NCBI GenBank assembly: GCA_021821045.1
Contig: JAKACW010000043.1
Span: 1 to 36,192 of the forward strand
DNA length: 36,192 bases
Direction: 5' to 3'
From: Pseudomonadota bacterium
Lineage (GTDB): Bacteria > Pseudomonadota > Gammaproteobacteria > JAADHS01
The notes beneath the pieces are model-generated. The model was not told the origin of the DNA. It saw only the letters and a program-made list of their open reading frames with translations, and made no database searches. Position numbers and translations under genes: made by a program. Below, in pieces: positions 30,181 through 36,160 of the stretch (position 1 is the stretch's first letter; the number at the start of each line of letters is the position of its first letter).

Positions 30181-31341
30181 TTAAAGGCCGGCGGCGTCAC
30201 GCAACGCGTCGGCTTTGTCCGTGTGTTCCCATGTGAAATCCTTTTCGTCGCGGCCGAAGTGACCGTAAGACGCCGTAGCGCTGTAAATCGGGCGCAACAG
30301 GTTGAGCCCCGAAATGATCGCCTTGGGCCGCATGTCGAAGTGTTCGCGAACCAGCTTGGTAATGGTGGCGTCGGAGACTTTGCCGGTGCCGAACGTCTGC
30401 ACGGTGATCGACGTGGGCTGAGCCACACCGATGGCGTAAGACACTTGGATTTCGCAGCGATCGGCCAAACCGGCGGCGACAATGTTCTTCGCCACATAGC
30501 GGCCCATGTATGCCGCGGAGCGGTCAACCTTGGACGGGTCCTTGCCGGAGAACGCGCCGCCGCCGTGACGGGCCATGCCGCCGTAGGTGTCGACGATGAT
30601 CTTGCGTCCGGTCAGTCCGCAGTCGCCCACCGGGCCGCCGATGACGAAACGGCCGGTCGGGTTGATGTAGTAGCGCGTCTTGCTGGTGAGCCACTCCGCC
30701 GGGAAAACCGGCTTGATGATTTCTTCCATGACCGCTTCTTTGAGCGCGTTGTATTTGATGTCCGGCGAATGTTGCGTCGACAGTACGATCGCATCGACGC
30801 CAACGGGATTGCCGTCTTCATAGACGAACGTTACTTGACTCTTCGCGTCGGGACGCAGCCAGGTCAACGTGCCGTTCTTGCGCACTTCCGCCTGGCGCTT
30901 GACCATGCGATGGGCATAGGTGATCGGGGCGGGCATCAATACATCGGTTTCATTGCTGGCGTAGCCGAACATGAGGCCTTGGTCGCCGGCGCCTTGCTCG
31001 TGGCTTTCGCCTTCGTCGACGCCCATGGCGATATCGGGGGACTGCTTGTCGATGGCGGTGAGCACCGCGCAGGATTCCCAGTCGAAGCCCAGTTCCGGTT
31101 TGTCGTAGCCGATGTCGCGGATGCGTCGGCGCACCACATCCTGCATATCGACCCATGCGGTCGTGGTGATTTCGCCGGAGACGATGACCATGCCGGTCTT
31201 GACCATGGTTTCGCAGGCGACGCGTGCTTTCGGGTCCTGAGCGAGAATCGCATCGAGGATCGCGTCTGAAATCTGGTCTGCGATTTTGTCGGGATGGCCT
31301 TCCGAAACCGATTCCGACGTGAACAAATAACTTTCGGTCAT
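30181..31341 (-). CDS. metK: S-adenosylmethionine synthetase
   Basis: A 386-residue enzyme making SAM from methionine and [34 protein letters not shown] and [19 protein letters not shown] are the signature motifs. It is the first gene of metK-ahcY-metF. The 226-base gap to the divergent small gene should hold its promoter; I could not match a SAM or SAH riboswitch consensus there. Confidence 0.98.
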
Positions 31342-31567
31342 GTATTGTCTCCAGGTAAAACGCTGATTTATCCGAATTGTCGATGCGGGCCCGCCCGGGC
31401 ATTGCGCAGCCGCGGCTCAAACGCCGAGGCGGAATTTTACATCTACCGCCGCGTGGGCACAATCAAACCAAGGGCGGTCGGTGGCGCATGGGACCGTTGT
31501 GCCGTAATATTTGCGCCACGCCTGGGCCACCCGGAAGTGGCTCCGCTGGGTATAAGGGAGGGATGCA

Positions 31568-31855
31568 ATGAAAAAATGGATAGTTTTTGTGAGTCTGGCA
31601 GGCGTGGCCACCGCCGCCGGGACACCGGCCCTCGCGTGCAATGCCGCTGGCCCGGACGTCCACTTGGGGCGCGTCGCCAACGTCGATGTCGACGCCGGCG
31701 AATTTACGATCAAAGACTTCGAAACCGGCAAGTTCATCACGTTTCGGGCCGATGCACGGCTCCTTAAAGATGTGCAGGGTCGGCACGAGCCGCTGGCGGT
31801 GAAGTTCCATGCCGAAGAGGCCGAGCTCACCGCCGTCGAAATCGAACACCAATGA
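31568..31855 (+). CDS. Small exported protein of unknown function
   Basis: A 95-residue protein with a clear signal peptide (KKW, then IVFVSLAGVATAAGTPALA, predicted cut before CNAAG by an Ala-x-Ala site). Mature length is about 70 residues with alternating hydrophobic strands (HLGRVANVDVDAGEFTIKDF, FITFRADARLL), suggesting a small beta-barrel. The site has Leu at -2, not -3, so a lipobox is doubtful. GGGAGGG precedes the ATG. Its TGA overlaps the start of the PRK-like gene as ATGA, so an exported protein and a cytoplasmic kinase are made together. No family is recognised with confidence. Confidence 0.75.
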   Translation: MKKWIVFVSLAGVATAAGTPALACNAAGPDVHLGRVANVDVDAGEFTIKDFETGKFITFRADARLLKDVQGRHEPLAVKFHAEEAELTAVEIEHQ

Positions 31856-32772
31856 GTATCTCGACCAAACCCACAGTGGTCGGCATTGCCGCTGACGCGT
31901 GTGCCGGGAAAAGCGGTTTCGCGGCGGGTTTGGCCTCCGTTTTCGGCCCGCAGCGCGCGGTGGTGGTGTGTCTGGATGATTACCGCCGGTTTACACGTCT
32001 GGAGCGGCAAGAAGCGCGCTATTCACGGATTCATCCCGATGTTTATTACCTGGATATCATGGCGCAGCACCTTGCCTTGCTGCGGGAAGGCCAGGCGATC
32101 TTGCGGCCGCTGTACAACCGCACCAACGGCGTGTTCGAGCGCTCGATTTATCAAGAACCCTGCGAAATCATCATCGCCGAAGGCCTGCAGTCCTTCGCGA
32201 CGCCCGAGTTGCGCAGCATCTTCGATTTGAAGATTTTCCTGGAGCCTGATGAGGCGTTAAAGACGCAGTGGAAATTGACCCGCGATGTCGACGTGCGTCA
32301 GCGGGCCGAAGCGGACGTGCGCACCGAGATGAAGCACTGGCATGCTGACAGCGAGGCGTTCATCGAGCCCCAACGCAAGTGGGCGGACTTGGTCGTTCGG
32401 CTTGCCGCCGCGAGCGGCAAGGGTAAGAGCGCCGCCGTTGAGCGGGTATCGCTCATCTTGCGCCCGACGTTGCCCCGACCCAATTTGACGGAGCTATTTT
32501 CCGCCGATCATGCGGGAATTAAGATAAGCCTTGATCGGGATATGGGTATACCTGTGGATCGCCTGGACATCCCAGTCACCGCGCCAGACGCGGCGTATTT
32601 GGAAGTCCAGAAGGCTTTGTGGGGCCAGATCGCGAAAAAACGGGAAGATGTAAAAACCGCAGGTTTGGGGGTGATCATCGGCCCACGGGGGGAGTCCCAA
32701 GTGTCCTCGGCATTGGTGATCGCGCAGTTGTTGACGGCCCTGGAGGCCCTGGCGGCGGGAGCCGGACAATAG
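31852..32772 (+). CDS. Phosphoribulokinase/uridine kinase-family protein, divergent
   Basis: A 306-residue P-loop kinase. It aligns with plant/cyanobacterial-type PRK: P-loop AADACAGKSG (13-22), CLDDYRRFTR (40-49), PLYNRTNGVF, IIIAEGLQSF (107-115) and KLTRDVDVRQ (141-150). Aspartate D42 and the KxxRD set (K141, R144, D145) are kept, but the histidine that follows in DxxH is arginine (R45), EGLHP is EGLQS, and the P-loop has SG for ST. A true PRK phosphorylates ribulose 5-phosphate in the Calvin cycle; these changes leave the substrate uncertain. Transketolase and GAPDH follow, which favours a sugar-phosphate role. Confidence 0.75.
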   Translation: MSISTKPTVVGIAADACAGKSGFAAGLASVFGPQRAVVVCLDDYRRFTRLERQEARYSRIHPDVYYLDIMAQHLALLREGQAILRPLYNRTNGVFERSIYQEPCEIIIAEGLQSFATPELRSIFDLKIFLEPDEALKTQWKLTRDVDVRQRAEADVRTEMKHWHADSEAFIEPQRKWADLVVRLAAASGKGKSAAVERVSLILRPTLPRPNLTELFSADHAGIKISLDRDMGIPVDRLDIPVTAPDAAYLEVQKALWGQIAKKREDVKTAGLGVIIGPRGESQVSSALVIAQLLTALEALAAGAGQ

Positions 32773-33082
32773 CCAATGTTCTGTGATAAGATTTCCCGCC
32801 TCCTGTCGCGGTAGACGAGGGGATAAATCAAGAATACTGAAAAACCTCTATTTTTCGCCCATTCCGCTGTTGCAACAGAATGCATCGCGCGTCGCGGTCG
32901 GGCGAAGAGGTGGTTATTGAAGTAAAGAAAAACTTGGGGAGTTGGTGGTAGTGCGGGAGACGCGCTCAGGCGCGCCCGTTCAGCGGGACAAAACGTTCCC
33001 AGAATTCAAAACGTACTCCGTGCCTGCAAAGATTTCGGAGTGCTGGTGATTTCGTGACTTTTATAATTTAGAGGAGAATCTC
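32773..33082. other. Leader region upstream of tkt with hairpins
   Basis: A 310-base gap without a credible gene. It holds a perfect 12-base palindrome CTGTTGCAACAG (32867-32878) and two abutting hairpins: CGCGC-TCAG-GCGCG (32961-32974) and CCCG-TTCAG-CGGG (32975-32987). AGGAGAATCTC precedes the tkt ATG. A TATAAT at 33062-33067 is too close to the ribosome binding site to be the main promoter. Together these suggest a long regulated 5' leader. No known riboswitch was recognised. Confidence 0.45.
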
Positions 33083-35086
33083 ATGCCCTCACGTAGAGAC
33101 CTGGCCAACGCCGTGCGTATTCTCAGCGCGGACGCGGTGCAGAAAGCAAAATCCGGCCACCCTGGGGCGCCCATGGGCATGGCGGATATTGCGGAAGTGT
33201 TGTGGAACGATTTCTTGAAACACAACCCGGCCAATCCCAAATGGGCCGATCGCGACCGCTTCGTTTTGTCCAACGGCCATGGCTCGATGCTGGTTTACTC
33301 GTTGCTGCATCTGTCCGGCTACGACTTGTCGATGGATGAAATCAAGCGCTTCCGCCAGCTGCACTCGAAAACTCCGGGACATCCCGAGTACGGGTACGCG
33401 CCAGGCGTGGAGACCACCACGGGTCCCCTCGGTCAAGGCATCACCAACGCCGTCGGCATGGCGCTCGCCGAAAAGGTGCTGGCGGGAACGTTCAATCGCG
33501 ACGGTCACCACATTGTCGACCACTACACCTACGTGTTCCTGGGCGACGGCTGCTTGATGGAAGGCATTTCGCACGAAGCCTGCTCCCTGGCCGGCACGCT
33601 CGGTCTGGGCAAACTGATTGCGTTTTACGACGACAACGGCATCTCCATCGACGGCCACGTCGAAGGGTGGTTCACCGATGACACGCCGAAGCGTTTCGAA
33701 GCCTACGGCTGGCACGTCGTGCGCAACGTGGATGGCCACGATTCGGAAGCCATTCGCAAAGCCATCATGGAAGCCCGTTCGGTGAACGACAAGCCGTCGA
33801 TGATTTGCTGCAAGACCGTCATCGGTTTCGGCGCGCCTAATCTGTGCGGCAGCCACGACTGCCACGGCGCACCGCTGGGCGACGAAGAACTGAAAGCGAC
33901 CCGCGCGAACCTCGAATGGAAATACGAGCCGTTCGTTATCCCCGATGAGATCTACGCCGGTTGGAGCGCTAAAGACAAAGGCAACAAGGCGGAGAGCGCT
34001 TGGCGCGACAAGTTCGCCAAGTATCAAGCCGCGTTTCCCGACCTGGCCGCCGAATTTCAGCGTCGCATGAAGGGCGACCTGCCGAAAGACTGGGCCGCCA
34101 AAGCTTGGGACTTCATCAATACGGTGAATTCAAAGGGCGAGACCATCGCCACTCGCAAGGCCTCGCAAAACGCCATCACCGGCTACGCGCCCCTGTTGCC
34201 GGAGTTGATCGGCGGCTCGGCGGATTTGGCCGGTTCCAACTTGACCATGTATTCGGGCTCCAAGCCCGTCAGCAGAACCGTGTCCGACGGCAACTACATT
34301 TACTATGGCGTTCGCGAATTCGGCATGTCCGCCATCATGAACGGCATGTCGCTGCATGGCGGATTCATTCCTTACGGCGGCACCTTCCTGATGTTTTCGG
34401 AGTACGCGCGCAACGCCGTGCGCATGGCGGCGTTGATGAAAGTGCAGAGCATTTTCGTCTACACCCACGACTCCATTGGCCTGGGCGAAGACGGTCCGAC
34501 GCACCAGCCGGTCGAGCAAGTGGCCACGCTGCGCTACATTCCGAACATGTCTTTGTGGCGCCCGTGCGACGCCGTGGAATCGGCGGTGGCATGGAAGTAC
34601 GCGGTTGATCGGCGCAAAGGCCCCGCGGCGTTGATTTTCTCCCGTCAGAACCTGAAGCACCAAACGCGCACCGACGCCCAGTTGAAGAATATCGCGCGCG
34701 GCGGCTATACGCTTGTGGATTGCGACGGCACGCCCCAGGCCATCTTGATCGCGACCGGATCCGAAGTTCAGTTGGCGGTTGACGCGGCGAAAGTGCTCAG
34801 CGAGAAGGGTCGCAAAGTTCGCGTAGTATCCATGCCGGCGACGGATGTGTTCGATGCGCAGGATGCGGCCTATCGCGAGTCTGTGCTGCCCAAGAACGTG
34901 CGCGCGCGCGTCGCTGTCGAAGCGGGCGTGAGCGAGTACTGGCGGCGTTACGTCGGTCTCGACGGTGCGGTGATCGGCATGGACTCGTTCGGCGAATCCG
35001 CTCCGGCCGGTGACTTGTTCAAGCACTTTGGATTCACGGTGGAGAAAGTTGTCGAAGCCACTGAAGCGGTGATGGGTCAACGCTGA
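33083..35086 (+). CDS. tkt: Transketolase
   Basis: A 667-residue TPP enzyme of the pentose phosphate or Calvin cycle. [37 protein letters not shown], the TPP motif [13 protein letters not shown]...DDNGISIDG and [20 protein letters not shown] (activating glutamate) are present. It is followed by gap after about 70 bases, resembling cbbT-gap clusters of autotrophic proteobacteria. Whether it serves carbon fixation cannot be decided without RuBisCO in view. Confidence 0.97.

Positions 35087-35137: not shown

Positions 35138-36160
<1,023 letters not shown>

Follow-up and report, generated by a model that had tools for sequence, protein, structure and literature searches.

A phosphoribulokinase that has probably changed its job or faded in a gammaproteobacterial genome

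We found that a kinase encoded in a contig of a gammaproteobacterium (assembly GCA_021821045.1, contig JAKACW010000043.1; the window, hereafter, is the whole 36,192-nucleotide stretch that was analysed) is probably a repurposed or weakened phosphoribulokinase (PRK, EC 2.7.1.19), that is, one whose job has changed or faded. Its family, its synteny, its accelerated divergence, its residue changes and the second PRK of the same genome (G000) are computational observations, and on these sequences an altered function is likely. As to what that function is, we give about even weight to the reading that the protein descends from a PRK of the NF005655 family, was freed from the task of phosphorylating ribulose 5-phosphate (Ru5P) and, if it is a kinase, would act on a different phosphorylated acceptor. 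PRK is usually regarded as a one-job signature enzyme of the Calvin cycle, and a copy that is without both key histidines, while its orthologues are little changed, amounts to a natural experiment on the ways in which a PRK may evolve. The features discussed are listed in Table 1.

Table 1. Features of the window around the kinase gene, with the residue motifs of its product.
Feature	Positions	Strand	Basis or comment
metK	30181-31341	-	Divergent neighbour; locus landmark also in G114 and G327
Shine-Dalgarno-like AGGGAGGG, 5' of the 95-aa ORF	31555-31562	+	By eye
95-aa ORF, exported-looking protein	31568-31855	+	ORF list and translation
Window kinase, 306-aa divergent PRK-family protein	31852-32772	+	NF005655; syntenic with proteobacterial PRK
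P-loop ADACAGKSG, residues 14-22	31891-31917	+	Relatives: GDSAAGKTT
DDYRRFTRLER, residues 42-52	31975-32007	+	Base D42, R49 and R52 kept; H45 to R
YNR, residues 88-90	32113-32121	+	Dyad histidine H90 to R
EGLQS, residues 110-114	32179-32193	+	NF005655 family: EGLLG
K141 LT R144 D145 VDV R149	32272-32298	+	Basic residues kept; K148 and G150 (just after) lost
tkt (transketolase), 310 bp 3' of the window kinase	33083-35086	+	
gap (type I GAPDH)	35141-36160	+	ORF opens at 35141; protein scanned from 35156

The window kinase reaches 248.5 bits against NF005655, the PRK07429 subfamily of PRKs (cut-off 236), with residues 4-301 lying on positions 5-312 of the 326 in the model, and 91.9 bits against PF00485 (cut-off 22); both scores exceed their cut-offs, so the match is not due to chance. 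Full-length sequence alignment was obtained only with the structures 9QKN and 9QKO/9QKP (E about 2e-65), canonical PRKs aligning within residues 6-209. An AlphaFold2 model of the protein (mean pLDDT 83, pTM 0.85) matched 9QKP and 9QKO with Z scores of 34.5 and 34.4, respectively, and an rmsd of 2.4 over about 300 residues.

The NF005655 family is not confined to cyanobacteria, and the genomic settings of its members argue that it is very probably a family of true PRKs, which in some bacteria would supply the sugar that accepts CO2. The window kinase alone, used as a contig query, returned no relatives, and a four-row alignment returned 220, of which the best 80 were kept. Among these best 80 of 220 are 11 non-cyanobacterial loci; the genomes of ten (L108-L116 and L122) were searched with PF00485, and the remaining locus, L147, is that of genome G114. 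In all ten named proteobacterial genomes the NF005655 kinase is the sole PF00485 member found, and all ten carry a RuBisCO large subunit over cut-off. In G207, which is 99% complete, RuBisCO gave three matches and the NF005655 kinase is the only PRK-family protein found. As a control, each of eight chosen cyanobacteria has a canonical PRK besides its NF005655 kinase, with a third match in two of them; class I PRKs were detected in G000-G003, G114 and G327. That no other PRK-family protein was found in 11 RuBisCO-bearing proteobacterial genomes is a genomic argument for the activity of this kinase, and the name "cyanobacteria specific PRK" needs correcting. By title or the start of the abstract, no work on NF005655 PRKs in proteobacteria or on 9QKN, 9QKO or 9QKP was found in the literature searched, outside which lie most subscription journals and all preprints.

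The order of genes around these kinases is also that of a sugar-phosphate cluster. In G327 and G207 the orthologue is followed on one strand by tkt, gap, pgk and pyk, and in G114 by tkt, gap and pyk, a reverse frame covering the place of pgk in ORF picking. At L108, L112 and L113 the run is kinase-tkt-gap-pgk-pyk-fba; we claim the full run to fba for these three, reverse-strand frames hiding some cluster genes at other loci (e.g., L109, L110 and L111), and at L112 pyk and fba pass their NCBIfam cut-offs, with pgk matching a longer pgk/tpi model below its cut-off. Members over the NF005655 cut-off are also carried by plasmids, in Mycobacterium intracellulare within rpe-tkt-PRK with RuBisCO and aldolase nearby, and in Allomeiothermus silvanus within glpX-RuBisCO-cbbX-PRK-rpe-fba. 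In G612 (L236:6566-8726) two PRKs are adjacent, one of class I and, between it and tkt, one of NF005655; an aldolase is close by, as is, by eye, a frame for form I RuBisCO.

Other PRK-like kinases were seen as well. In G073 (L078:5042-7770) a different one, with the motifs GYHKEDR and EGLHALYPE, directly precedes a RuBisCO-large-like protein and a cupin. G202 has such a kinase with a RuBisCO-large match about 2.6 kb away, and in G302 the kinase is present with no RuBisCO-large match. At L022, L023 and L024 (in G005, G136 and G022, genomes that gave no RuBisCO match) frames of 680-684 residues encode a PRK-like domain preceded by a long hydrophobic N-terminal stretch that looks membrane-embedded.

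The sugar-phosphate setting that the sequence-only reading had drawn from the tkt and gap genes beside the window kinase was borne out, its orthologues heading a tkt-gap cluster. The order metK, one gene, kinase, tkt-gap is the same in G114, G327 and the window, where metK, ahcY and metF are the divergent genes upstream of the 95-aa ORF. The spacing between kinase and tkt is 310 bp in the window as against 26-28 bp in G207, L108, L112 and L113, and is 81 and 113 bp in G327 and G114, respectively; a scan of 31250-33150 returned no terminators (2.5 expected) and one promoter-like site (0.8 expected), counts that are uninformative. The gap gene of the window is a different paralogue, 48-51% identical to the gap at the matching place in G114, G327 and G207 and 85% identical over 222 residues to the G003 gap.

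Within this conserved setting, the kinase has diverged rapidly. It shares 39-44% identity with its proteobacterial orthologues among the best 80 of 220 relatives and 41-42% with those of G114, G327 and G207, which are 77-91% identical among themselves; the tkt, metK and ahcY products of the window are 71-82% identical to those of the same three genomes. A 63-row tree places it inside the gamma clade (support 99/100) with an end branch of 2.21, other gamma rows having at most about 0.05; the tree program flags the length and letter make-up of the window row, and its exact place is unsure, though synteny agrees. No relative above 44% identity was found in 56 genomes, in 369 genomes searched with the family model, in the best 80 of 220 or in 398 genomes of the phylum (the samples overlap), the last of which held two further family members at 35-37% identity.

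One could envision such a protein as a decaying redundant gene, open by chance and heading for loss: its same-family relatives G001 (85% complete) and G002 (95% complete) gave no match to the kinase, 29 columns invariant in relatives from the best 80 of 220 are broken, and its codon preference is weak, at 0.10 bits per codon as compared to 0.25-0.49 for five neighbours, 0.31 for the class I PRK of the genome and 0.26-0.47 for orthologues at six other loci or genomes (with reference genes that were not quite the same from locus to locus). However, despite some 2.2 changes per site the 306-codon frame is still open and aligns to the orthologues with gaps no longer than one or two residues, and when neutral base changes were simulated from L108 to 43% identity, none of 300 runs stayed free of stops (mean 6.6, minimum 1; base changes only, no indels), so selection has acted on the frame through most of its history. 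Decay is the least probable of the readings considered here, and we regard it as quite improbable. Because the codon score of the 95-aa gene is equally low (0.09), weak preference may be a property of the two genes together and not a sign that a PRK role was lost.

The residues that have been kept and lost bear more directly on function. That D42 and KxxRD are retained, and that the histidine of DxxH has become arginine, was already clear to the sequence-only reading, and the translation agrees (K141-L-T-R144-D145, and DxxR at 42-45). Two further signs from that reading are present but mean less than was claimed: EGLQS does stand at 110-114, but it is not a sign of altered specificity, since the protein's own family has EGLLG there and not EGLHP; and the P-loop does end in GKSG at 19-22, but it is not damaged in itself, though T22 is otherwise constant. 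Walker A requires only GK[S/T], and both this element (G19 K20 S21) and the catalytic Asp are present in the window kinase. A striking change that had not been remarked on before is H90R in the YNH motif. All of the best 80 of 220 relatives (80/80) have His at positions 45 and 90, as do 58/58 PRK-type rows of all classes in a second alignment, and the window kinase has Arg at both; of the uridine kinases in the second alignment, 4/4 have Tyr at 45 and 3/4 have His at 90. The searches that sought closer relatives found no second genome with this Arg-Arg form.

In passages of its published description (PMC5241800), R59, R62, Y98 and H100 of the Methanospirillum hungatei PRK hold a sulphate at the Ru5P phosphate site, and H55, K151 and R154 match Ru5P-/ATP-binding residues of the Rhodobacter enzyme; in plant PRK, according to an extract of another study (PMC9978339), the catalytic base Asp58 pairs with His106. 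By motif and a constant shift of 10, R49, R52, Y88, R90, R45, K141 and R144 of the window kinase were put at these published sites, and by this placement the base and the Arg/Tyr/Lys clamp (R49, Y88, K141 and R144, all kept) remain and both histidines are gone. The combination of H45R and H90R makes poor Ru5P turnover most likely; because position 90 is His in most of the uridine kinases too, its loss may abolish kinase activity of any kind. A working PRK isoform, slower or differently regulated, with arginines taking over from the histidines at the Ru5P phosphate site, would account for the retention of R49, R52, Y88, K141 and R144 and for the neighbouring tkt and gap, and would be in keeping with a family whose members are very probably PRKs. 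Nevertheless, the constancy of both histidines across all classes of PRK aligned and the low codon preference tell against such an isoform, and we consider it rather unlikely.

A broader test does not single out the active site. Across 79 full-length relatives (from the best 80 of 220, mostly cyanobacterial; L135, truncated at 109 aa, was dropped), 88 columns are invariant, of which the window kinase keeps 59 and breaks 29; when nine other rows were put through the same test one by one, eight broke none and L184 broke one. Invariant residues of the active site were kept in 12/17 cases as compared to 47/71 for the others (Fisher p 1.0), and a set leaving out L176 instead of L135 likewise gave no preferential retention (9/14 versus 18/30). 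The active site thus fared no better than the rest, a result that does not argue for catalysis having been specifically preserved, and a weakened or regulatory function fits nearly as well as altered specificity. The protein could be a (nearly) non-catalytic regulator that binds ATP or sugar phosphates and senses or titrates Calvin-cycle intermediates or partner enzymes, as the dyad His and T22 are lost with the fold predicted to be intact, the C-terminal R229 D230 M231 and P234 V235 D236, invariant in relatives from the best 80 of 220, are kept, and codon preference is low. A pure pseudo-enzyme would have no need of K20, D42, E110, K141, R144 and D145, however, all of which are kept, and no partner gene is evident; we hold a regulator to be unlikely, though with some claim to attention.

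The genome has a PRK besides the window kinase. A second, canonical prk and RuBisCO, which the sequence-only reading had named as things to look for, were both found in G000: a class I PRK at G000:C124:43490-44113, with 517 bits to NF011997 and only 81.5 to NF005655, far under the cut-off of 236, and four matches to the RuBisCO large subunit, of which one is partial. Both Calvin-cycle signature enzymes are thus present without the window kinase, and the possibility that it is the sole PRK of the cell was rejected. G114 and G327 also have a class I PRK, and their NF005655 kinases are 91% identical to each other; as these are conserved despite it, having a second PRK is not enough to explain the change in the window.

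The ATGA shared by the 95-aa and kinase ORFs is as had been reported, at 31852-31855, and by eye no Shine-Dalgarno sequence was seen in the stretch upstream of the kinase, so that re-initiation at its start, coupled to translation of the 95-aa ORF, is plausible. The 95-aa protein is exported-looking, having a hydrophobic N-terminus that ends in ALAC, and gave no match to any family of Pfam or NCBIfam at E values up to 1; two other members of its family have no Pfam family either. Homologues occur in 9/93 other genomes searched (29-41% identity over the matched parts), and the window member and those at loci L050-L059 share a Cys after the hydrophobic start, H-x-G and a TFTI-like pattern. The balanced synthesis or functional pairing proposed for the two proteins was not supported as a conserved design. 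The G002 homologue divergently adjoins metK and is not followed by a kinase gene, and homologues occur in eight further genomes. In the search of 369 genomes seven exceeded the NF005655 cut-off, none of them one of these nine, and the five of the nine included in the 56-genome search gave no match to the window kinase. A conserved kinase and exported-protein module was rejected on these searches, and the pairing, seen only in the window, looks incidental, since the homologue stands beside metK without a kinase in G002. An AhpC/TSA-type protein fills the place of the 95-aa gene in G114 (by Pfam) and in G327 and G003 (by likeness of the first residues). The 95-aa gene would then be an upstream gene particular to this lineage, and ribosomes translating it would probably pass on to the kinase start.

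Under the reading to which we give even weight, the window kinase would be a syntenic descendant of the NF005655 PRK that heads a Calvin-cycle cluster in proteobacteria. Ru5P would probably be phosphorylated in G000 by the separate class I PRK, and the window copy, freed from that task, would persist as an intact and probably weakly expressed protein. It would retain the nucleotide loop (GKS), D42 and a phosphate clamp of R49, R52, Y88, K141, R144 and R149, with replacements at the two histidines responsible for orienting Ru5P and tuning the base, and would most likely no longer be good at Ru5P turnover; its acceptor, if it has one, would be another phosphorylated compound. Of the altered specificity first proposed, the divergent PRK-like kinase with changed Ru5P-site residues stands, and specificity itself is only plausible, as one of several readings. 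A fuller scenario, in which a true Calvin-cycle PRK, shared by cyanobacteria and proteobacteria probably through horizontal transfer, turned into a new-acceptor kinase via a double His-to-Arg switch at the Ru5P site and is translationally coupled to an exported protein, is unlikely as a whole.

Among known systems, uridine kinases have the P-loop kinase core in common with the window kinase, at 74-85 bits, but were rejected as its identity (73.7 bits against the TIGR00235 cut-off of 220.3 and 85.4 against the NF004018 cut-off of 180), and the four aligned are without R49 and R52, both of which the window kinase has. Class I bacterial PRK (NF011997; 1A7J) shares PF00485 with it and is a different subfamily. 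Plant-type (class II) PRK of cyanobacteria and plants (6HZK, 6KEV and 6KEX) has the kinase-domain fold and the base Asp in common, with the sequence match lying within residues 6-209 and Z scores of 24.7-27.7 as compared to 33.6-34.5 for 9QKN/9QKO/9QKP; unlike the window kinase, eight cyanobacterial plant-type PRK rows have EGLHP and both histidines. The archaeal PRK of M. hungatei (5B3F; Z 30.1, 24% identity) has residues that, as named in passages of its description, fit window positions at the constant shift of 10 (R59, R62, Y98, H55, H100, K151 and R154), with Arg in the window kinase in place of H55 and H100. Closest is the "cyanobacteria specific PRK" of Chroococcidiopsis (Hyella disjuncta) PCC 6712 and Gloeocapsa PCC 73106 (PDB 9QKO, 9QKP and 9QKN), to which the window kinase is homologous over its full length and in fold, with 38% identity over about 300 residues. 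With its NF005655 relatives it has in common DDY, R49, R52, KxxRD and the C-terminal R-D-M..P-V-D, and it differs from them in R45, R90, S21-G22, EGLQS, V148 and Q150, where they have H, H, T-T, EGLLG, K and G, respectively.
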